A stretch of 64,000 nucleotides of DNA from positions 362,366 through 426,365 of the forward strand of contig OX638333.1 in NCBI GenBank assembly GCA_951812895.1, in the 5' to 3' direction. This DNA comes from an uncultured Roseovarius sp. Its GTDB lineage: Bacteria; Pseudomonadota; Alphaproteobacteria; Rhodobacterales; Rhodobacteraceae. A program made the position numbers and the translations under genes. The first letter of the stretch is position 1. Each line of letters opens with the position of its first letter. The notes below the pieces were generated by a model. It ran no database searches and had not been told where the DNA came from. It saw nothing but the letters and a program-made list of their open reading frames with translations. Below, piece after piece: positions 36,691 to 47,348 of this stretch.

Positions 36691-36818
36691 CGAGAATCGC
36701 TAAACGTTTAACTAAATTTTAACGGCCACCCCTTATTTTCCCTTGGTTAACGGAGGATTAACAAACAGTTCGCATCTAAGGCACTGCCCATCAGATGCGG
36801 GAAAGGTCGGTGGGTTTT

Positions 36819-38543
36819 ATGTTGGATTATTCTGAAGTCGGTCTGTTGCCGGCGATGTTTGATCAGCCAATTTCGGAGCAGATTTGGCAGTCAAAGTACC
36901 AGTACAAAACTGAAGGTAACATAGTTGATCAAACGGTCAGCGACACGTGGTTGCGCGTAGCGAACAACCTGTCACACCGCGAATGCAACAGGGACCGAAA
37001 CGATGTCTCTCAGCAATTCTATGAAGCCATGCAAGGGTTCAAACTTTTACCTGCAGGTCGTATTCTCGCCGGCTGCGGGACCAAACGCAACGTGACCCTT
37101 TGCAACACCTTTGTCATGCGCACGATACCTGACTCTGTCGAAGGCATAATGGATACGATCAAAGATGCTGCTTTGACCATGAAAATGGGCGGTGGGCTGG
37201 GCTTCGACTTTTCTACGCTGCGCCCCAAGGGAACCCTGGTTCGCGGCCTCGACTGCCCCGCGGCAGGTCCCCTTGCCGCGATGGATATCTGTGATGCGGT
37301 CTGTAAAATGCTCGTCACCGGAATGGGGCGCGGGGCGATGATGGCCACCATGCGGTGCGATCATCCAGACATCGAGGAGTTCATTTCGGCCAAGTCAGAT
37401 CCCTCGCGTTTGAGAAATTTCAACATGTCTGTTCTGATCACAGACCGCTTCATGAACGCCGTAGAGAAGAATTTGGATTGGGGGCTGGTATGGAACGGCT
37501 CTGTTATCCGGCGAATTCGGGCGCGCGCTTTGTGGAACAGGATCATGCAGCAAAACTATGATTCTGCCGAGCCTGGGGTGCTGTTCATCGACCGCATCAA
37601 TGCAGCAAACCCTCTAAACTATCTGGAAGAGCTTTCGGCCACAAACTCATGTGCAGAGCAACCATTGCCACCTAATGGAACATGCGCGCTGGCCTCTATC
37701 AATCTTGCAAAACTGGTTGCTGAACCGTTTGGACAGAACGCAAAACTTGATCTTGGAGAATTGCGCAGACTGACAGGTGTGGCGGTACGGATGTTGGACA
37801 ATACAATCGACCTGTCTCAGTTCGCGGTAGAGGAGCAGAAGCACGAAACACAGTCCAAAAGACGGATCGGCGTTGGTGTGACAGGTGTCGCGGATGCTCT
37901 CATAATGCTTGGCGTGCGCTACGGCTCGTCCGAGGGCGAGCGCCTGTTCGAGTCGTGGATGCAGGCGCTTCAGAACGCGGCGTATCTTGCATCGGCCCAT
38001 CTTGCAGCAGTTCGTGGTTGTTTTCCGGCTTTTGACCGCCGCGAACACCAAAAACAACCCGCGATACAGGCGCTTGACCCGCATGTGCGAATGGCGATTG
38101 CCAAACATGGTCTGCGTAATGGCGTCCTGACAACAATCGCACCCACGGGTACGACATCCATGTATGGCGGCAATGTATCGTCAGGAATTGAGCCCGTATT
38201 CGCAACGTCTTACAAGCGCAAGATTACCAATCCAGACGGCACTAAGTCCGAGGAGGTGGTGGAAGATTACGCAGTCTGGCTATACCGTCAGATGTTTGGA
38301 TCAAAGATGCCTTTGACGGACGCGTTTGTTACGGCACAGGATCTGCGGCCTGAGGATCATGTGCGAATGCAGGCCGCAGCGCAAAGGTGGGTCGACAGCG
38401 GCATTTCGAAAACCGTGAACTGCCCCGAGGATATTCCTTTCGACACCTTCAGCAATGTCTACAAAATGGCATATGAATCCGGCTGCAAGGGATGCACTAC
38501 CTATCGCCCTAATGCTGTAACCGGGTCGGTCCTGTCGACATGA
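36819..38543 (+). CDS. Adenosylcobalamin-dependent (class II) ribonucleotide reductase, short form
   Basis: 574 residues from the ATG at 36819 (GGTGGG upstream; a start at 36795 adds 8 residues). The active-site thiyl segment NSCAE gives Asn276, Cys278 and Glu280, and the disulfide pair is Cys95 and Cys289. MRCDHPDIEEFI, AEPGVLFIDRIN and GVTGVADALIM are class II landmarks. It ends soon after CKGCTTYRPN, without the longer zinc-finger-like or redox tail found in many relatives. The main roseobacter enzyme (NrdJ) is usually about 1,200 residues, so this looks like an additional, shorter enzyme. It overlaps the next gene by 4 bases (ATGA). Confidence 0.85.
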   Translation: MLDYSEVGLLPAMFDQPISEQIWQSKYQYKTEGNIVDQTVSDTWLRVANNLSHRECNRDRNDVSQQFYEAMQGFKLLPAGRILAGCGTKRNVTLCNTFVMRTIPDSVEGIMDTIKDAALTMKMGGGLGFDFSTLRPKGTLVRGLDCPAAGPLAAMDICDAVCKMLVTGMGRGAMMATMRCDHPDIEEFISAKSDPSRLRNFNMSVLITDRFMNAVEKNLDWGLVWNGSVIRRIRARALWNRIMQQNYDSAEPGVLFIDRINAANPLNYLEELSATNSCAEQPLPPNGTCALASINLAKLVAEPFGQNAKLDLGELRRLTGVAVRMLDNTIDLSQFAVEEQKHETQSKRRIGVGVTGVADALIMLGVRYGSSEGERLFESWMQALQNAAYLASAHLAAVRGCFPAFDRREHQKQPAIQALDPHVRMAIAKHGLRNGVLTTIAPTGTTSMYGGNVSSGIEPVFATSYKRKITNPDGTKSEEVVEDYAVWLYRQMFGSKMPLTDAFVTAQDLRPEDHVRMQAAAQRWVDSGISKTVNCPEDIPFDTFSNVYKMAYESGCKGCTTYRPNAVTGSVLST

Positions 38544-38944: not shown

Positions 38945-39394
38945 TTAGGACTTTGAGGCCTTGTCAGTAAATTCGAGGAATTTTTCCAACGTCTCGTCGC
39001 TCACATGATGCTCGATCCCTTCCGCATCATGCTCCGCTATCTCTCGTGGCACACCTAGAGTGATCAATAAATCCACCACGATCCGGTGTCGTTTTCGGCA
39101 AGCCTCAGCAAGGTGTTGGCCAGCGTCCGTCAACTGAATGGCGCGATAGGGTTCGTGCAGAATCAATCCTTCACGCTTCAAGCGCACTAAATTTTTGCTG
39201 ACCGTCGGTTGTGCAACGCCCAGCCGTTCAGCAATTTCAACTGGGCGAGCTGACCCGCTGAGATCAATCAATTCCGCAATCAATTCGATATAATCTTCAA
39301 CAATTTCACTTTGATGCGCTGTACGCACAGCTTCAAACCCACTGGCCTGCGCATCCACCGTACGAACCGGCTTCTTTGAAAATTGTTCAGTCAT
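38945..39394 (-). CDS. mntR: Manganese-responsive regulator MntR (DtxR family)
   Basis: 149 residues from the ATG at 39394. The winged helix-turn-helix (about 45-90) has VEDYIELIAELI and LGVAQPTVSKNLVRLKREGL. The dimerisation/metal segment carries RKRHRIVVDLLITLGV and AEGIEHHVSDETL, the text characteristic of proteobacterial MntR, including the Glu-x-x-Glu-His metal motif. The SH3-like domain of DtxR is absent, as in MntR. Divergent from the 39514-43740 operon; two MntR-type boxes lie in the promoter. Predicted Mn(II)-dependent repressor. Confidence 0.88.
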   Translation of the reverse strand: MTEQFSKKPVRTVDAQASGFEAVRTAHQSEIVEDYIELIAELIDLSGSARPVEIAERLGVAQPTVSKNLVRLKREGLILHEPYRAIQLTDAGQHLAEACRKRHRIVVDLLITLGVPREIAEHDAEGIEHHVSDETLEKFLEFTDKASKS

Positions 39395-39464
39395 CAAGAG
39401 TTCACAAGTTCGTAAAAAGATTATCAATCTTGTATGCCGTGCTTTTCTGGTCTTGACAACTTAT

Positions 39465-39496
39465 TAGCTGTAGCTACAAAAGTTAGCCTGTGCTAA
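39465..39496 (+). promoter_or_regulatory. Tandem MntR-type boxes in the peroxidase/ABC operon promoter
   Basis: Two copies of TAGC-N4-GCTA, 18 bases apart: TTAGCTGTAGCTAC (39465-39478) and TTAGCCTGTGCTAA (39483-39496). TAGC-N4-GCTA is also the core of the E. coli MntR box as I recall it. A TTGACA (39454-39459) with a weak TACAAA (39476-39481) 16 bases later overlaps both boxes. The start at 39514 is 18 bases on. Repression by metal-loaded MntR is the natural reading; the same boxes can also act on the divergent mntR gene. Confidence 0.78.
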
Positions 39497-39513
39497 TATT
39501 TATAGACAAGCCT

Positions 39514-41370
39514 ATGAAACACCTTTTTTTCAGTCTGATCCTCTGCCTGTTCCCAATTGCCGTGAATGCCACAGCAATTGAACAAGCCCCGTGGGAGCCG
39601 CGGGCAGCGGCCTACAGGCTGACCTTGTTCCTGGGCAATCTCAACCCAACCCCTTGGGACAAACTGGAATCAAGCTGGACCGCGCCTGTTCCCGGTAGCG
39701 CCTTGCCGGTTTCAGCATTGTCGCGTGTGACTGAAGTCGAATCTGCAGATATAAGAGAGGCACTCCGCACCAAGGACCGGCAGGCGTTGTTCGAGGCGTC
39801 TACGACAGCGATTTCTGGTGGCATACTACGCCATCTTGATGCCGCAGAAACTGCACTTGGCACATCTTCAGGCGCAGAACCAGAGATAGCCATAGCAGAA
39901 GCGCTGTTTCGTGCGTTCGAAGATGGAATAGCAGCAGCCGACGCCAGTGCAGCAAAAGAAATCGGTCGGGCCTGGCTGGTCCTGAATTCTTCAGTTGGAA
40001 GTGCGGGTCTTCTCGGAAATGGCATTGAGGACCCAAACACCATCGCCTTTGCGGAAGCCAAATCGACGATCTCTGATTATGTCGAACAAAACTACCTTCT
40101 CGCTGAATTTACGCCTCGGTCCAAGCTGACCCCGATCCCAGAATCCATCTTTGTGAGTGGTGTTCAGGTCGACCTTCCTGCCACTTTGCCACCGGGCAGC
40201 GATATTGCAGACCAGCGAGAGTTCCCCCGCCTTGTGCTTCAATTTGAAGAGGCTGGCGAGGATGAGGCCAACTTGCCACTGGTGGCCTATGGCGACATGC
40301 TGTTTGACAGTCCCGAAATTTTTGGCGGGCCAGCACAGGAGTTAGGCATCACCTGCTCCACCTGCCACAACCGCTCTGACGTGAACCGTGATTTCTTTAT
40401 TCCGGGTCTTAGCCACAGGCCCGGTGGCATGGATGTCGACAGCGCATTTTTCAATCCGATGTTCAACGACAGAACCGATGATCATCTTGATACCCCTTCG
40501 ATGCGCGGCATCCGGTTTACGGCGCCCTATGGTCGCGACGGGCGCGAGCCGAGCTTGCGCCGTTTTGTGCGCAATGTAATCGTCACTGAATTTGCAGGTA
40601 AAGAGCCAACACCGTTTCAGCTAGACGCTATGGTCGCCTACATCCGACAGTTCGACTTCTTGCCAAACCCCAAAATTGACCGGGCAGGCCTGCTAACTGA
40701 CCTCGCGTCTGATGCAGCCAAGCGAGGAGAGGTGTTGTTCAACACCAAATTCGCCGGGCTTGATGATAAATCCTGTGCCAGCTGTCATACGCCGTCCCGC
40801 CATTTCAGGGATGGAAAAACTTATGACATTGGCACAGCAGAGCCTCCATTCCCCGGTGGAACGCCTACGGCCTTTGAAACCCCTACCCTGCGCAACGTCA
40901 ACTTTACCGCCCCCTACATGCATGACGGTTCGTTACCAACACTCGCAAGCGTGGTGGATTGGTTTGATTCCACCAAAAACCTGGGGTTGAACGCGGATCA
41001 ACGCGCTGACCTGACCGCTTACATACTCGCGGTCGGTGATGGAGAGGAGCCGTATCAGCACTTTGAAGGCACAGACAGCGTGTTCCGCCTGTCCTGGGAA
41101 GAGCTGACAACATTTGCGTCGACACTCGATACATTGTTGCCAGCCCAAGATGCCGAGAATATCGCTCTGCTGGTTGCAACTGTTGCCCCTGATCTGGCTG
41201 CAGACGCCTCTGCCATGACAAATCAGGCCGCAAAACCAGATGTGTATGAGTTTGCGGCTATCCTGCGTGCGGTAGGCGTTGCCAGTGCGGCTGGTGACTG
41301 GCATGAAGCCAACCGTCAATGGAATGCATTTAAAATTCGCCAGGCCGAAATTGACGAGAGGATGTTCTGA
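39514..41370 (+). CDS. Di-haem cytochrome c peroxidase/MauG-like exported protein with extra N-terminal domain
   Basis: 618 residues with a signal peptide (to about VNA|TAIEQ). Two haem-c motifs are CSTCH (281-285) and CASCH (421-425), with a distal FTAPYMHDGS segment near 470. This is the CCP/MauG/MbnH superfamily arrangement. About 250 residues precede the first haem and are helix-rich (SGGILRHLDAAETALG ... AKEIGRAWLVLNSS), with no family recognised. Ordinary bacterial cytochrome c peroxidases are around 320-350 residues, so about 260-300 residues are extra. It is coupled to the binding-protein gene (TGATG). Its reaction, oxidising either a metal, a chelate or a protein, is unknown. Confidence 0.85.
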   Translation: MKHLFFSLILCLFPIAVNATAIEQAPWEPRAAAYRLTLFLGNLNPTPWDKLESSWTAPVPGSALPVSALSRVTEVESADIREALRTKDRQALFEASTTAISGGILRHLDAAETALGTSSGAEPEIAIAEALFRAFEDGIAAADASAAKEIGRAWLVLNSSVGSAGLLGNGIEDPNTIAFAEAKSTISDYVEQNYLLAEFTPRSKLTPIPESIFVSGVQVDLPATLPPGSDIADQREFPRLVLQFEEAGEDEANLPLVAYGDMLFDSPEIFGGPAQELGITCSTCHNRSDVNRDFFIPGLSHRPGGMDVDSAFFNPMFNDRTDDHLDTPSMRGIRFTAPYGRDGREPSLRRFVRNVIVTEFAGKEPTPFQLDAMVAYIRQFDFLPNPKIDRAGLLTDLASDAAKRGEVLFNTKFAGLDDKSCASCHTPSRHFRDGKTYDIGTAEPPFPGGTPTAFETPTLRNVNFTAPYMHDGSLPTLASVVDWFDSTKNLGLNADQRADLTAYILAVGDGEEPYQHFEGTDSVFRLSWEELTTFASTLDTLLPAQDAENIALLVATVAPDLAADASAMTNQAAKPDVYEFAAILRAVGVASAAGDWHEANRQWNAFKIRQAEIDERMF

Positions 41371-42230
41371 TGCTGAACCGGCGTCTGTTTATGGCTGCAG
41401 CCTGTGCCACCTTGGCATTGCCCTCTTCTGGTTTCGCCGCACAAGGGCTGAAACTTGCATTTATTCCCCAGGAAAATCCGGAAAAATTGCTTGGGGACAT
41501 CAAGATCGTAACCGGCTGGCTAACGGAACAACTGGGGGTGCCCGTCACAGGTTTTGTTACCTTTGACCATGCTGCGGCCGTCGAGGCGCTGCGCAATGGC
41601 GATGCTGACATCTCTTTTATGGGTGCCCTGCCTTTTGTGCTGGCCGAAGACCAGATTGGCGCGATCCCGCTCTTGTCCGAGGTGTATCGTGGCCAACCCA
41701 GTTATGCGGGCCGTGTCTTTGTACGGCGCGATAGCGGGATCAAAACGCTTGCCGACCTAAAGGGGCTTGATATTGCATTTGCCGATCCTGTTTCTGAATC
41801 CGGTTATCTATATCCACTGGATCTGTTCGTTCGCGACGGGTTAATTGCAGACGCACCTGACGCAGATAATTTTTTTGGTCAGAAATTTTTTGCCGGTGGA
41901 TATCAGCAGGCCATGCAGGCGATGGCCAATGGCCTTGTGGATGCCGCAGGGGCAAGCCAATACGCTGATCTTTTGCTTACTCCTGAACAGCAAGCAGAGG
42001 TGGTAGTGCTTGCGGAATCTGAACAAATTCCGAGCCACGCTATCATTGCTCGTCCGGGAATAGATGCCGATCTGCAATCCCGGTTCACACTTGCCATGCT
42101 TCGCCTGAACGACGCGGAAAACCGCCATTTACTGGCCTATTTGTACGGACCAGACGGTTACGTCGCGACGGATCCGGCTGTTTATGAGGGCGTGCGCGCA
42201 ACAGCGCGGCGTTATGGGTACTTGAAATGA
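41370..42230 (+). CDS. PhnD-family ABC substrate-binding protein, MntR-linked
   Basis: 286 residues with a Tat- or Sec-like signal (NRRLFMAAACATLALPSSGFAA). Family text includes LRNGDADISFMGALPFV, SYAGRVFVRRDSGIKTLADLKG and DPVSESGYLYPL. The PhnD anion loop STSG is replaced by SESG (142-145): the Thr that helps bind a phosphonate oxygen is a Glu, which would disfavour an anion. The authentic PhnD at 1-810 in this same window keeps STSG. The ligand is therefore probably not a phosphonate; a metal ion or metal complex would fit the MntR control. Starts inside the peroxidase stop. Confidence 0.85.
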   Translation: MLNRRLFMAAACATLALPSSGFAAQGLKLAFIPQENPEKLLGDIKIVTGWLTEQLGVPVTGFVTFDHAAAVEALRNGDADISFMGALPFVLAEDQIGAIPLLSEVYRGQPSYAGRVFVRRDSGIKTLADLKGLDIAFADPVSESGYLYPLDLFVRDGLIADAPDADNFFGQKFFAGGYQQAMQAMANGLVDAAGASQYADLLLTPEQQAEVVVLAESEQIPSHAIIARPGIDADLQSRFTLAMLRLNDAENRHLLAYLYGPDGYVATDPAVYEGVRATARRYGYLK

Positions 42231-42997
42231 GCGCCACTGTCGCCCTGTCCAACATCTCGCATCAGTTTGATGGCATTGCCGCGCTTCAGGATGTCTCTCT
42301 GACCGTCAAACCCGGGGAAATCGTTGTTCTTCTGGGCGCGTCAGGGGCAGGCAAGTCTACACTCCTTTCATTGCTGGATGGCCGGTTGGATGAGTGGCAG
42401 GGACAAGCCGAAGTTCTGGGCAGCAAATTATCCGAAGGTACGGCACCAACGCGGCAGAAGCGGACCGAAGTTGGCTTTATCTTTCAAGAATTCGCGCTTG
42501 TTGACCGGCTGAGCGTCTATCAGAACGTGATGAACGGGCGTTTGGGGCATATGCGGGTTTGGCAATCTCTTTGGGGTCGGTTCGATGAGCGCGACCACAT
42601 GGCGGTTTCTGCGGCCCTTCGCGATACCGGGCTGGCCGATCTGGCGCGCCGCCGCACGGATCAGATTTCCGGCGGTCAGCGTCAGCGCGTCGCCATCGCG
42701 CGTTGCCTGGCGCAGGAGCCAAAGCTGATACTGGCCGATGAACCGGTGAGTAATCTGGATCCGGCGCATGCCGAAAAGATCCTCGCATTGATCACGGGGC
42801 AAGCCCGCAAACGCGGGATCGGGGTGATTTTCAGCTCACACCAACCAGAGCTTTCACAGCGGTTTGCGGACCGGATTGTGGGGCTGAGACAGGGTGAAAT
42901 CCTGTTTGATTCCCCGGCCGGGCAGATCACTCAGGACCATATAAAACAGCTATATTATGGCGATACACCCGGCGGTGGGTTGCGTGTTGTAAGCTGA
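42227..42997 (+). CDS. PhnC-like ABC transporter ATP-binding protein, MntR-linked
   Basis: 256 residues. Walker A is [11 protein letters not shown], the Q-loop FQEFALVDRL, the signature ISGGQRQRVAIARCLA, Walker B LILADEPVSNLDP and the switch SSHQPELS. ADEPVSNLDP and the insertion of about 25 residues before the signature are PhnC-like. It starts inside the stop of the binding-protein gene (ATGA) and is in turn coupled to the permease, so the three transporter proteins are made from one coupled message. Confidence 0.9.
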   Translation: MSATVALSNISHQFDGIAALQDVSLTVKPGEIVVLLGASGAGKSTLLSLLDGRLDEWQGQAEVLGSKLSEGTAPTRQKRTEVGFIFQEFALVDRLSVYQNVMNGRLGHMRVWQSLWGRFDERDHMAVSAALRDTGLADLARRRTDQISGGQRQRVAIARCLAQEPKLILADEPVSNLDPAHAEKILALITGQARKRGIGVIFSSHQPELSQRFADRIVGLRQGEILFDSPAGQITQDHIKQLYYGDTPGGGLRVVS

Positions 42998-43740
42998 TGT
43001 CACGGATTGTTATCTGGGTTTCGCTTGCTGTGGCAATTCTGTGGTCTTTGACCACTGCGGATATCGGGTTGGGTAAGCTTCCGGGGGCCGGCGTCAGGCT
43101 TGCTGATTTTCTAGGCCGGATGCTGCCCCCCGATCTGTCAATCTGGCCGGAAGTGCTGAATGGCCTTGCCGAGACTTTGCGCATTGCAATCCTCGGCACT
43201 TTGTTCTCTGTGATCCTGTCCAGCGGGCTGGCGGTGCTGGCCTCTGAAAACCTTATGCCACCGGCAATATGGCGCCCGGTGCGGGCGGTTTTGGCTGTGA
43301 TCAGGGCCATTCCATTGATCCTTGTGGCGATGCTTATGGTCGGCGCCGTGGGCCTTGGCCCTCTGCCCGGAATTCTGGCGGTAACTTTCCATGCCACTGG
43401 AATGCTTGCTAAATTTTACGCGGAAGCCATCGACAACGTGGCCTCTGCTCCGGTTGCAGCGCTTGAAAGTGCAGGGGCCAATACGGTGCAGCGCCTGCGG
43501 TGGGCGATCTGGCCGCAGATGGCGCCGGTGGTGTTGCGCGACACGGTGTTTCGCTTTGAACTGAACCTGCGCGAAAGCCTGATCCTCGGCATTGTCGGGG
43601 CAGGTGGTATCGGCCTTTATATACAGACCTATGTGCGGTCTTTTCAGTATGAAAAGGCGGCGACCGTGACTTTGGCGATCATTGTTCTGGTGTTGTTGTC
43701 AGAGCTGATCAATGGGGCACTGCGCAAGCGATTCAGCTGA
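42997..43740 (+). CDS. PhnE-like ABC transporter permease, MntR-linked
   Basis: 247 residues, about six membrane helices, with the EAA-type loop ALESAGANTVQRLRWAIWPQ and the C-terminal LRESLILGIVGAGGIGLYI text typical of PhnE. Starts within the stop of the ATPase gene (TGATG). Last gene of the MntR-controlled operon. Confidence 0.9.
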   Translation: MSRIVIWVSLAVAILWSLTTADIGLGKLPGAGVRLADFLGRMLPPDLSIWPEVLNGLAETLRIAILGTLFSVILSSGLAVLASENLMPPAIWRPVRAVLAVIRAIPLILVAMLMVGAVGLGPLPGILAVTFHATGMLAKFYAEAIDNVASAPVAALESAGANTVQRLRWAIWPQMAPVVLRDTVFRFELNLRESLILGIVGAGGIGLYIQTYVRSFQYEKAATVTLAIIVLVLLSELINGALRKRFS

Positions 43741-45938: not shown

Positions 45939-47279
45939 TTACCTCCTTACCGGACCCCAGGGGCCGACACGCGCGACCATTTCGTCCAAATCCGGTTTTT
46001 CCGTCTCCATCGGCGCATCGCGGCCAAACAGTGCCTTGCGCGCCCCCAGCTTGTCCACCTGATATTCGCGCAACAGGAAATCGACCACATATTCCTTCTT
46101 GGCCTCTGACCAGGTGCGGTAGCGGTCATAAAACAGCTCTTTGTGGCAGATGAACAGCTGTCGGATATCCTTGGGCGCCAGCTCTGACAGCAGCATGTTG
46201 ACCAGATCCGCATCCGGATGCGCCGCCGCGCGCAGCGTATAAAAATAGGCCGGATCGTCCGATGCGATGCGCGGCCATTCGCCGCCATCCTCGGCCCATC
46301 TGACCAGCTTGCCCAATGTGTGAAACTCGTCTGGCAACTGATCGGAATGTGCCCGTGCCAGCCGCCGCATATCTGCCCGTGACCGGCCGGACAGCGCCAC
46401 GCCTTCGCCCGCCAGCGCATCGACCAGAATGAAATCCATCTTTTGCCGCAGGATGGCAGAGGCATCGATGCCGCGCGCCTTAACAATCGGTTCGGCCAGA
46501 TCGTTGTATTCCAGAAACTTGGCGATCCGGTTCCGTTCGGACACATCGAACACATATTTGATCGGCAGCTCGCCCAGATCGCCCTTGTCCCCGGCGGTGA
46601 TCAGTGCCGGGTGATCCATCCCCTGAAACAGATAGGTGCCGCCAAAATGCGCAGTCCAGAAATTCTGCTGCTCAAAGCTCATGTGTTTGAGCGTGACAGG
46701 ATTGCGCACAATATCCCCGGTCTCGCCGGCCAGATTGATCATCTCGGCGATCAGCACATCGTCAAACCAGGCATCTTCCTCGCTCAGGAACCGGTCAACC
46801 TTTTCATCCAGAACCTGCGCCTGCCGGATGGCGCCATTGGTGGTGTCCGCCTCAACCGTGATGCGGCGGATGTCGAACAGGCGTTGGGGCGAAGACATGT
46901 CATAAACTGAGTTCACCAGCTCTCCGGCCACCGCGTCGCGGGTGGTCAGGGCAAAGAGGGCGGCTTCATTCTCCTCGATAAACTTATGCAGAATGCCCCA
47001 CGAGGTGGAAAATTTCGCCTCCAACAGCGGCGCATTCTTCTGCTCGGCGCTCAACAGGATAAACTGCCGGTTCACGCCCGCGTGGTTTAGGTAAAGCGGA
47101 TCACCCAGCTCATGCCCGACCTCGGGGGAATAGCCGGAAATGTCGATATAGAAATCGGTGAGCGCGGTCTCTTTGCCGGTCAGATGCTTGAGCGCACGGT
47201 TGTACCGCTCGACCAGTGCAGGGCTGGCCACATGCACCAGATTGCCGAACATCAGGCCGGATTTGATGAGGCGTTTCAT
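45939..47279 (-). CDS. DUF6638 family protein
   Basis: 446 residues from the ATG at 47279 (MKRLIKSGLMFG); a longer frame to 47306 adds MCGLGSDLS. Soluble, no signal peptide or membrane helices. I assign DUF6638 from overall resemblance (GNLVHVASPALVERYNRALKHL, LLREYQVDKLGARKALFGRD). It is separated from the AAA ATPase gene by the DUF2971 gene. The family's function is not known; co-directionality with the ATPase suggests a shared process. Confidence 0.78.
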   Translation of the reverse strand: MKRLIKSGLMFGNLVHVASPALVERYNRALKHLTGKETALTDFYIDISGYSPEVGHELGDPLYLNHAGVNRQFILLSAEQKNAPLLEAKFSTSWGILHKFIEENEAALFALTTRDAVAGELVNSVYDMSSPQRLFDIRRITVEADTTNGAIRQAQVLDEKVDRFLSEEDAWFDDVLIAEMINLAGETGDIVRNPVTLKHMSFEQQNFWTAHFGGTYLFQGMDHPALITAGDKGDLGELPIKYVFDVSERNRIAKFLEYNDLAEPIVKARGIDASAILRQKMDFILVDALAGEGVALSGRSRADMRRLARAHSDQLPDEFHTLGKLVRWAEDGGEWPRIASDDPAYFYTLRAAAHPDADLVNMLLSELAPKDIRQLFICHKELFYDRYRTWSEAKKEYVVDFLLREYQVDKLGARKALFGRDAPMETEKPDLDEMVARVGPWGPVRR

Positions 47280-47348
47280 GCTAAGGTCACTCCCCAATCC
47301 ACACAAAGGTTTTGGCGCGAAGTGAGATTACTCTTGGCGCTGAACTTA

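Follow-up and report, generated by a model that had tools for sequence, protein, structure and literature searches.

We analysed a 64,000-nucleotide window of DNA from an uncultured Roseovarius sp. (contig OX638333.1 of assembly GCA_951812895.1, forward-strand positions 362,366 to 426,365), in which a gene for a DtxR/MntR-family regulator is divergent from four genes encoding a di-haem protein and a PhnDCE-like importer. We refer to these five genes (38945 to 43740) as the cassette. mntR, identified by its match to NF008273, occupies 38945 to 39427 on the minus strand; its listed start is a TTG at 39427, and an ATG at 39394 is the likelier start. The other four genes are on the plus strand. 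The first encodes a 618-residue di-haem protein of the cytochrome c peroxidase (CCP)/MauG type (39514 to 41370), with a PF03150 domain and two CxxCH motifs. Its start is probably the ATG at 39514 rather than the listed GTG at 39490, since by inspection the N terminus there resembles a signal peptide. It is followed by genes for a PF12974 substrate-binding protein (SBP) with a twin-arginine signal and the PtxB/ArrX fold (41370 to 42230), a PhnC-like ATP-binding cassette (ABC) ATPase assigned from profile scores (42227 to 42997), and a PhnE-like ABC permease matching TIGR01097 (42997 to 43740). The genes overlap at TGATG (41370; di-haem/SBP), ATGA (42227; SBP/ATPase) and TGATG (42997; ATPase/permease). 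When checked directly in the sequence, the five genes, the overlaps and two palindromes in the promoter were found as the original prediction had stated.

The regulator exceeded the cut-off of the curated NCBIfam model NF008273, which represents MntR of the E. coli type (197.8 bits; cut-off, 153). In the numbering of the listed open reading frame (ORF), residues D45, E48, H114, E136, E139 and H140 align with D8, E11, H77, E99, E102 and H103 of B. subtilis MntR, which we take to be the six Mn-site residues of that protein. By inspection, a putative plus-strand promoter has a -35 element TTGACA (39453 to 39458) and a weak -10 element TACAAA (39475 to 39480) separated by a 16-base spacer. The first MntR-box-like palindrome, TTAGCTGTAGCTAC (39464 to 39477), lies within the spacer and the -10 element; the second, TTAGCCTGTGCTAA (39483 to 39496), lies just 3′ of the -10 element and is the conserved site. 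A stricter sigma-70 scan returned no promoter in this region, and hence the promoter call rests on the conserved spacing between the -35 element and the box. The position of the box over the start site fits an MntR operator, i.e., repression.

Searching 295 genomes of the same family with the di-haem protein identified it in 15, 14 of them besides the window's own. At all 14 other loci, MntR is divergent and the SBP, ATPase and permease follow in the same order; the cassette is complete in 15 of 15 carriers. The promoters of L019 and L020, and those of L023 and L024, are identical or nearly so, and the 15 loci therefore amount to fewer than 15 independent cases. A contig scan, whose species overlap those of the 295-genome sample, found 138 relatives, of which 80 were kept. 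A divergent MntR was present at 78 of the 80 loci, and all five genes at 72. Six of the eight incomplete loci (L178, L196, L206, L212, L223 and L224) reach a contig end; the other two, L161 and L162, lack MntR, and L162 is also at a contig end, which brings the number at contig ends to seven of eight. In each of the 72 complete loci, the di-haem gene leads the group of four. L209, counted as complete, lists the ATPase ahead of the SBP, which we attribute to overlapping ORFs being sorted by start. The original prediction had proposed co-occurrence in other genomes as a check, and these counts (15/15 family carriers, 72/80 scanned loci) show that the five genes do recur together.

Judged by the titles of their records, carriers are mainly roseobacters and also include Stappiaceae (Labrenzia and Pseudovibrio) and Rhizobiales (Hoeflea and Oricola). 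Two entries are labelled gammaproteobacteria, L212 and L217, the latter a metagenome-assembled genome (MAG) that is possibly misbinned. In PLSDB, the di-haem gene was found on 44 of 72,556 plasmids, 19 of them conjugative and 18 mobilizable. The SBP was found at E ≤ 1e-60 in 2 of 398 genomes of a phylum sample, the window's own included. The cassette is thus a patchy, mobile trait. Two plasmid copies are annotated as “cytochrome c peroxidase,” “phosphate/phosphite/phosphonate ABC transporter substrate-binding protein” and “PhnE,” indicating that the system is unrecognised there. In the flanks of the 80 scanned loci (L146 to L225), grouped into similarity clusters with one member per cluster scanned against Pfam, an L,D-transpeptidase gene occurs at 49 loci, a P-type ATPase gene at 44 and a ZIP gene at 30.

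We counted boxes in cassette promoters using the pattern TTAG[ACG]-N4-[GTC]CTAA, which is slightly wider than TTAGCNNNNKCTAA. The promoters came from the 80 loci; after removal of L196 (which has no di-haem ORF), of windows shorter than 300 bases and of identical windows, 65 distinct promoters were left. The box was present in 62 of these, compared with 2 of 3,642 equal background pieces taken from the same loci away from the promoter, a background that refers to the palindrome alone, with no requirement for -35 spacing. In 61 promoters the box starts 29 to 30 bases after the first base of TTGAC[A/G], and in L159 it starts at 11. The three promoters lacking a box are those of L161, L162 and L175, of which L161 and L162 also lack MntR.

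MntR models detected 58 genes above cut-off in 50 of the 295 genomes: 15 beside the cassette, 28 facing Nramp, 3 beside a SitA-type gene, 5 facing a multicopper oxidase (MCO) and ZIP pair, 5 in P-type ATPase islands (L115 and L136 to L139) and 2 with no recognised partner (L110 and L118). In the 31 promoters in which MntR faces Nramp (28) or lies beside SitA (3), the core TAGC-N4-GCTA was exact in 11, and 26 had it with no more than one mismatch; in mononucleotide shuffles, 0.6% had an exact match and 13% one mismatch (14% for the two together). The full box is present in all five MntR-MCO-ZIP promoters. At these loci (L104, L106, L107, L111 and L112, in five genomes, with L111 and L112 nearly identical), MntR is divergent from a multicopper oxidase gene that overlaps or abuts a ZIP-like gene; the L104 ZIP match is just below the Pfam cut-off (33.7 versus 35.1). 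We concluded that the MCO-ZIP loci are a second pairing of a periplasmic-type oxidase with a transporter beside MntR. At L139 (6460 to 6750), a 97-residue piece of the di-haem protein lies beside MntR and a P-type ATPase, and islands L136 to L138 are similar; L139 is perhaps a decayed cassette that has kept its regulator.

The importer has mixed profile scores. The SBP matches PF12974 (187.2 bits; cut-off, 27) and the permease exceeds the PhnE equivalog TIGR01097 (245 bits; cut-off, 216.7), whereas the ATPase falls below the PhnC equivalog TIGR02315 (246.8 versus 266.1) and the SBP falls below both the PhnD equivalog (145.5 versus 261.1) and the selenate SBP model TIGR04553 (82.4 versus 250). 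Among Pfam hits at E ≤ 0.001, the SBP had no match to PF01297, the family of SitA/ZnuA metal SBPs. By sequence and fold it groups with PtxB, ArrX, AioX and PhnD (mean predicted local distance difference test [pLDDT] score of the model, 82). Phosphite contacts reported for Te_PtxB include Y55, S130 and H160 as well as Y208, which caps the site, and Y100 belongs to the hydrogen-bond network; the contact list of Pm_PhnD has Y46, S126, T127, S128, H158 and D205 (PMC5700983). By alignment count, Te_PtxB Y55, Y100, STS (Ser-Thr-Ser), H160 and Y208 correspond to H67, Y112, S142-E143-S144, Y178 and H223 of the cassette SBP. Thus the SBP does not have the oxyanion pocket: where the phosphite pocket has Tyr, Thr and Tyr, it carries His67 (plus-strand codon 41568 to 41570; aligned with the Y55 ligand), Glu143 (41796 to 41798; aligned with the Thr of the STS oxyanion motif of PtxB and PhnD) and His223 (42036 to 42038; aligned with the capping Y208). 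All seven pocket residues are the same in every one of the 64 distinct cassette SBPs. Two His residues and a Glu are typical ligands of transition metals, not of oxyanions.

As a control, we aligned 24 non-cassette PF12974 proteins, drawn from one locus per genome of 31 family genomes together with two paralogues from the window's genome. None of the 24 has the His/Glu/His triad. Sixteen gave a clear alignment (E < 1e-10), with Ser-Thr-Ser or Ser-Asn-Ser retained, and eight gave a weak one. At the left edge of the window (positions 1 to 681; 362306 to 363046 of its own genome) lies a PhnD-like protein with the Tyr/STS pocket, indicating that the host has a separate phosphonate-type SBP; L002, a separate PhnD-like protein of the host, keeps both the Tyr and the STS. 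An RRxx-hydrophobic motif precedes the mature SBP in 64 of 64 sequences, one of which lacks the anchor used for placement, and the fuller twin-arginine translocation (Tat) form [ST]RRx[FIL][LIMV] is present in 26 of the 64. Export by the Tat route would suit an SBP that is folded or loaded with metal beforehand; this is no more than suggestive. Judged on sequence, the importer is related to PhnCDE by descent, yet it falls short of the PhnD and PhnC equivalog cut-offs and lacks the oxyanion pocket.

The di-haem protein passes PF03150 (41.6 bits; cut-off, 25.6). In its two haem motifs, CSTCH (residues 281 to 285; 40354 to 40368) and CASCH (residues 421 to 425; 40774 to 40788), the Cys, Cys and His are invariant in 13 of 13 aligned sequences. 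By inspection it has a Sec-type signal peptide, and it is therefore predicted to be periplasmic. About 200 mostly helical residues precede the haem part (residues about 30 to 220; 39601 to 40173) and about 95 follow it (residues 523 to 618; 41080 to 41367); neither region has a significant Pfam match, the best for the C-terminal segment being at E = 0.2. The best curated match is the MbnH model TIGR04039, at 71.5 bits far below its cut-off of 362.85, and scores against the curated MauG and CytoC_perox models are also far below cut-off. Its best single-sequence match in the PDB is 6e1c, a “di-heme enzyme.” A Foldseek search with the structure model returned nothing significant; its matches, to cytochrome c′, EfeM, EfeO, imelysin and other proteins, had a best E of 1.5, and we did not use them as evidence. 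An Anderseniella MAG encodes a di-haem protein, 67% identical, with no adjoining MntR, box or PhnDCE-like genes (L161, 8001 to 9854).

Family searches of the window's genome detected no Nramp and no ZIP match. It has one ZnuA-family gene, accompanied by genes for a Fur-family regulator, an ABC ATPase and an ABC-3 permease, and we read this locus as a zur-znuABC zinc importer. Among the 295 genomes, Nramp was above cut-off in 53 and a SitA-type SBP was present in 218, with neither in 44; the SitA-type threshold of 1e-50 was set in a gap in the E values, and G014, at 1e-49, is ambiguous. Both importers were missing from 7 of 15 carriers (G000, G089, G170, G195, G208, G223 and G267) compared with 37 of the 280 non-carriers (Fisher P = 0.0026, without correction for relatedness). 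Six of these seven carriers have a single ZnuA-family gene adjoined by a relative of the window's Fur-family gene; in G195 the ZnuA-family gene is partial, with a 46% match to the window's ZnuA. Ten genomes have MntR and neither importer, of which seven carry the cassette and one (G217) carries an MCO-ZIP pair. Work by Green et al. in 2013 reportedly concerned marine Mn uptake, with MntX in roseobacters. A Vibrio relative reportedly rises, rather than falls, with Mn. UPF0016/GDT1 (PF01169) was not above cut-off in any of 31 genomes. We dropped the identification of MntX with UPF0016/GDT1, since MntX and the UPF0016 protein MneA are reported as distinct proteins; hence this null result is uninformative on MntX.

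The linkage, the operator-like box, the sequence replacement in the pocket and the absence of both importers from 7 of 15 carriers are direct findings, whereas both the substrate, Mn, and the target of the oxidase are inferred. We lean towards the view that the cassette is a transferable, high-affinity, MntR-repressed Mn acquisition system with a periplasmic haem oxidase, and we consider it probable, judging from sequence, that Mn is imported in some form. When Mn is plentiful, Mn-MntR would bind the palindrome or palindromes over the promoter and block transcription. Under Mn shortage, the overlapping genes would all four be expressed together. The Tat-signal SBP, its pocket rebuilt with two His and a Glu (and with the conserved Tyr112 and Tyr178), would bind an Mn ion or a small Mn complex, which the PhnC/PhnE-like pair would import. 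The secreted di-haem protein would act upstream in the periplasm, where an oxidative step, of Mn(II) to Mn(III) or of a ligand that holds Mn, might free Mn for the SBP or select it. Oxidation before import is favoured by the position of the di-haem gene, first in the 72 complete loci, and by the pairing of an unrelated oxidase with a transporter in the MCO-ZIP loci; coupling between the di-haem protein and import is nevertheless a tentative proposal, and on balance we doubt it. Reportedly, P. putida GB-1 contains more cellular Mn when able to oxidise Mn (PMC3798386). A bolder version, which we think somewhat less likely still, is that periplasmic oxidases under MntR control (a di-haem protein here and a multicopper oxidase in the MCO-ZIP loci) make Mn(III), which a transferrin-like His2/Glu/Tyr fold captures and an ABC pump imports, as an Mn-nutrition step spread on conjugative plasmids among marine bacteria.

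The original prediction had held that metal shortage induces a periplasmic di-haem oxidase together with an importer for a metal, a metal complex or a compound that the oxidase modifies. This was partly borne out. The comparison, with its conserved arrangement and its box in 62 of 65 promoters versus 2 of 3,642 background pieces, strongly supports MntR control and linkage among the five genes. A metal rather than a phosphonate as substrate gains support from the pocket substitutions and from the replacement of the usual partner of MntR, both read from sequence. The response to Mn, the identity of the substrate and the role of the di-haem protein are still predictions.

Several observations weigh against Mn acquisition by the cassette. 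Genome-wide, TTAGCNNNNKCTAA gave 15 strand matches at nine places, compared with 19 for the reversed control, and is therefore not enriched; MntR may here act as a local regulator. One of the nine places is in the cassette, four are at about 85 kb, two are inside ORFs and two are between ORFs; by inspection, the four outside the cassette and the 85-kb group adjoin genes not recognised as metal genes. MntH boxes share the core and often differ in the outer bases (ATAGCC..GGCTAT, GTAGCC..GGCTAC). Two non-cassette proteins, L265 and L267, both weakly aligned, have a His at the H223 position. In the di-haem model, pLDDT is under 50 for residues 228 to 386 and 412 to 480, the haem region, and the copy in L161 means that the enzyme may work alone. 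Eight of the 15 carriers also hold SitA-type or Nramp genes, and the 37 non-carriers lacking both show that other Mn importers must exist. Copper-handling genes (PCu(A)C, SCO and DUF411) occur in some of the plasmid islands that hold the cassette, and hence another metal may be involved. The 85-kb matches lie in L247, a region of the window's own genome (79.5 to 92.5 kb) that is phage-like by inspection and has four TTAGC-N4-GCTAA palindromes; the adjoining ORF has no Pfam match. These palindromes are perhaps phage operators resembling the MntR box, and, although this is unproved, we set the cluster aside as a source of further MntR targets.

The copper genes lend some weight to a reading in which the substrate, imported under MntR control, is a different metal or a metal-organic complex (Cu, Fe(III) or a metal bound to a metallophore) and Mn is merely the signal. 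We consider this rather improbable, given that the regulator keeps all six Mn-site residues, that MntH or SitA-type genes occur in 31 of the 43 other MntR neighbourhoods of the family, and that the neighbouring window proteins scanned included no copper gene. An ordinary phosphonate or phosphite importer that lies beside MntR by chance would account for PF12974, the PhnE equivalog match and the PhnC-like ATPase. However, the SBP is more than 100 bits below the PhnD cut-off, all 64 sequences have other residues in place of the oxyanion-pocket Tyr, Thr and Tyr, and the host keeps L002 as a separate PhnD-like protein with Tyr and STS. Phosphonate transport was rejected on these pocket residues and equivalog scores, and we regard it as very improbable.

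The di-haem protein admits two further explanations. It could be a CCP that defends against peroxide under Mn scarcity, induced when Mn antioxidants fail, with an importer that is uncoupled from it and serves an unrelated nutrient, or Mn independently. The CCP_MauG domain with two CxxCH motifs and the orphan copy in L161 agree with this, as does the reported link between MntR-controlled Mn uptake and H2O2 resistance in S. maltophilia (PMC13217887). On the other hand, in 14 of the 15 family loci the di-haem gene runs into the SBP gene, and in the remaining one, L029, it lies one base away; the protein's scores are far below the MbnH, MauG and CytoC_perox cut-offs; moreover, the helical regions at both ends, lacking significant Pfam matches, indicate that this is no plain CCP. 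Peroxide defence therefore seems to us a minor contender. Alternatively, the enzyme might oxidise residues of the SBP to complete a metal site, after which the finished SBP imports Mn. MbnH oxidises residues of its partner MbnP, and MbnH is the best curated match of the di-haem protein, as a “di-heme enzyme” is its best PDB match; the invariance of the pocket residues Tyr112 and Tyr178 in 64 of 64 SBPs also counts in its favour. Against such maturation stand the MbnH score, far below its cut-off, and the location of W50, the only invariant Trp in a 13-sequence SBP alignment, in helix 37-55, outside the mapped pocket residues. We consider maturation of the MauG/MbnH type distinctly unlikely.

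Two other genes near the cassette were noted. A 582-residue B12-dependent ribonucleotide reductase of the NrdJ_Z type is encoded at 36795 to 38543; it had no match in the 14 other cassette regions searched and is therefore not read as linked to the cassette. A full-length DUF6638 protein of unknown function (774.6 bits) is encoded at 45939 to 47306.

Compared with MntR-MntH and MntR-SitABCD, the cassette has the same regulator family, the divergent layout (as for MntH) and the core operator TAGC-N4-GCTA, whereas its importer is neither Nramp nor of the ZnuA/SitA type and it includes a periplasmic haem enzyme. It differs from PtxABC/PhnCDE in the change of PtxB Tyr55, the STS Thr and Tyr208 to His, Glu and His, in its control by MntR and in its di-haem partner. 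Oxidase-coupled iron uptake is known from multicopper oxidase-Ftr1 and from EfeUOB with the haem peroxidase EfeB. The cassette likewise combines a periplasmic oxidase with an importer for a scarce metal, but has MntR, an ABC importer and a di-haem CCP/MauG-type enzyme; we found no significant sequence or fold relation between the two, and the likeness is one of design only. With MbnH-MbnP and MauG it shares the di-haem enzyme superfamily, and it differs in its sub-cut-off scores, its extra helical regions and its solute-binding protein neighbour. The MntR-TBDR-pTFP module of Stenotrophomonas maltophilia is, like the cassette, a lineage-restricted candidate for Mn acquisition under MntR; as far as the available part of the report goes, it comprises a TonB-dependent receptor and a thioredoxin-fold protein and none of the cassette's four target genes (PMC13217887).

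A literature search confined to open-licence papers found no description of the five-gene combination, in agreement with the original prediction that no described system has this composition. The cassette looks like a previously undescribed Mn uptake route, compact and often plasmid-borne. To our knowledge, known Mn ABC importers use ZnuA/SitA-type binding proteins; if our reading is correct, a metal binder with the PhnD fold would be a new route to Mn specificity, and some “phosphonate transporter” annotations in marine bacteria would be wrong. If the oxidase coupling is real, it would represent a new kind of ABC metal import, and, should the oxidase act on Mn, bacterial Mn oxidation would have a role in nutrition, which would bear on the long-standing question of its purpose. 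The cassette could also explain the Mn supply of several roseobacters that lack MntH and SitABCD.

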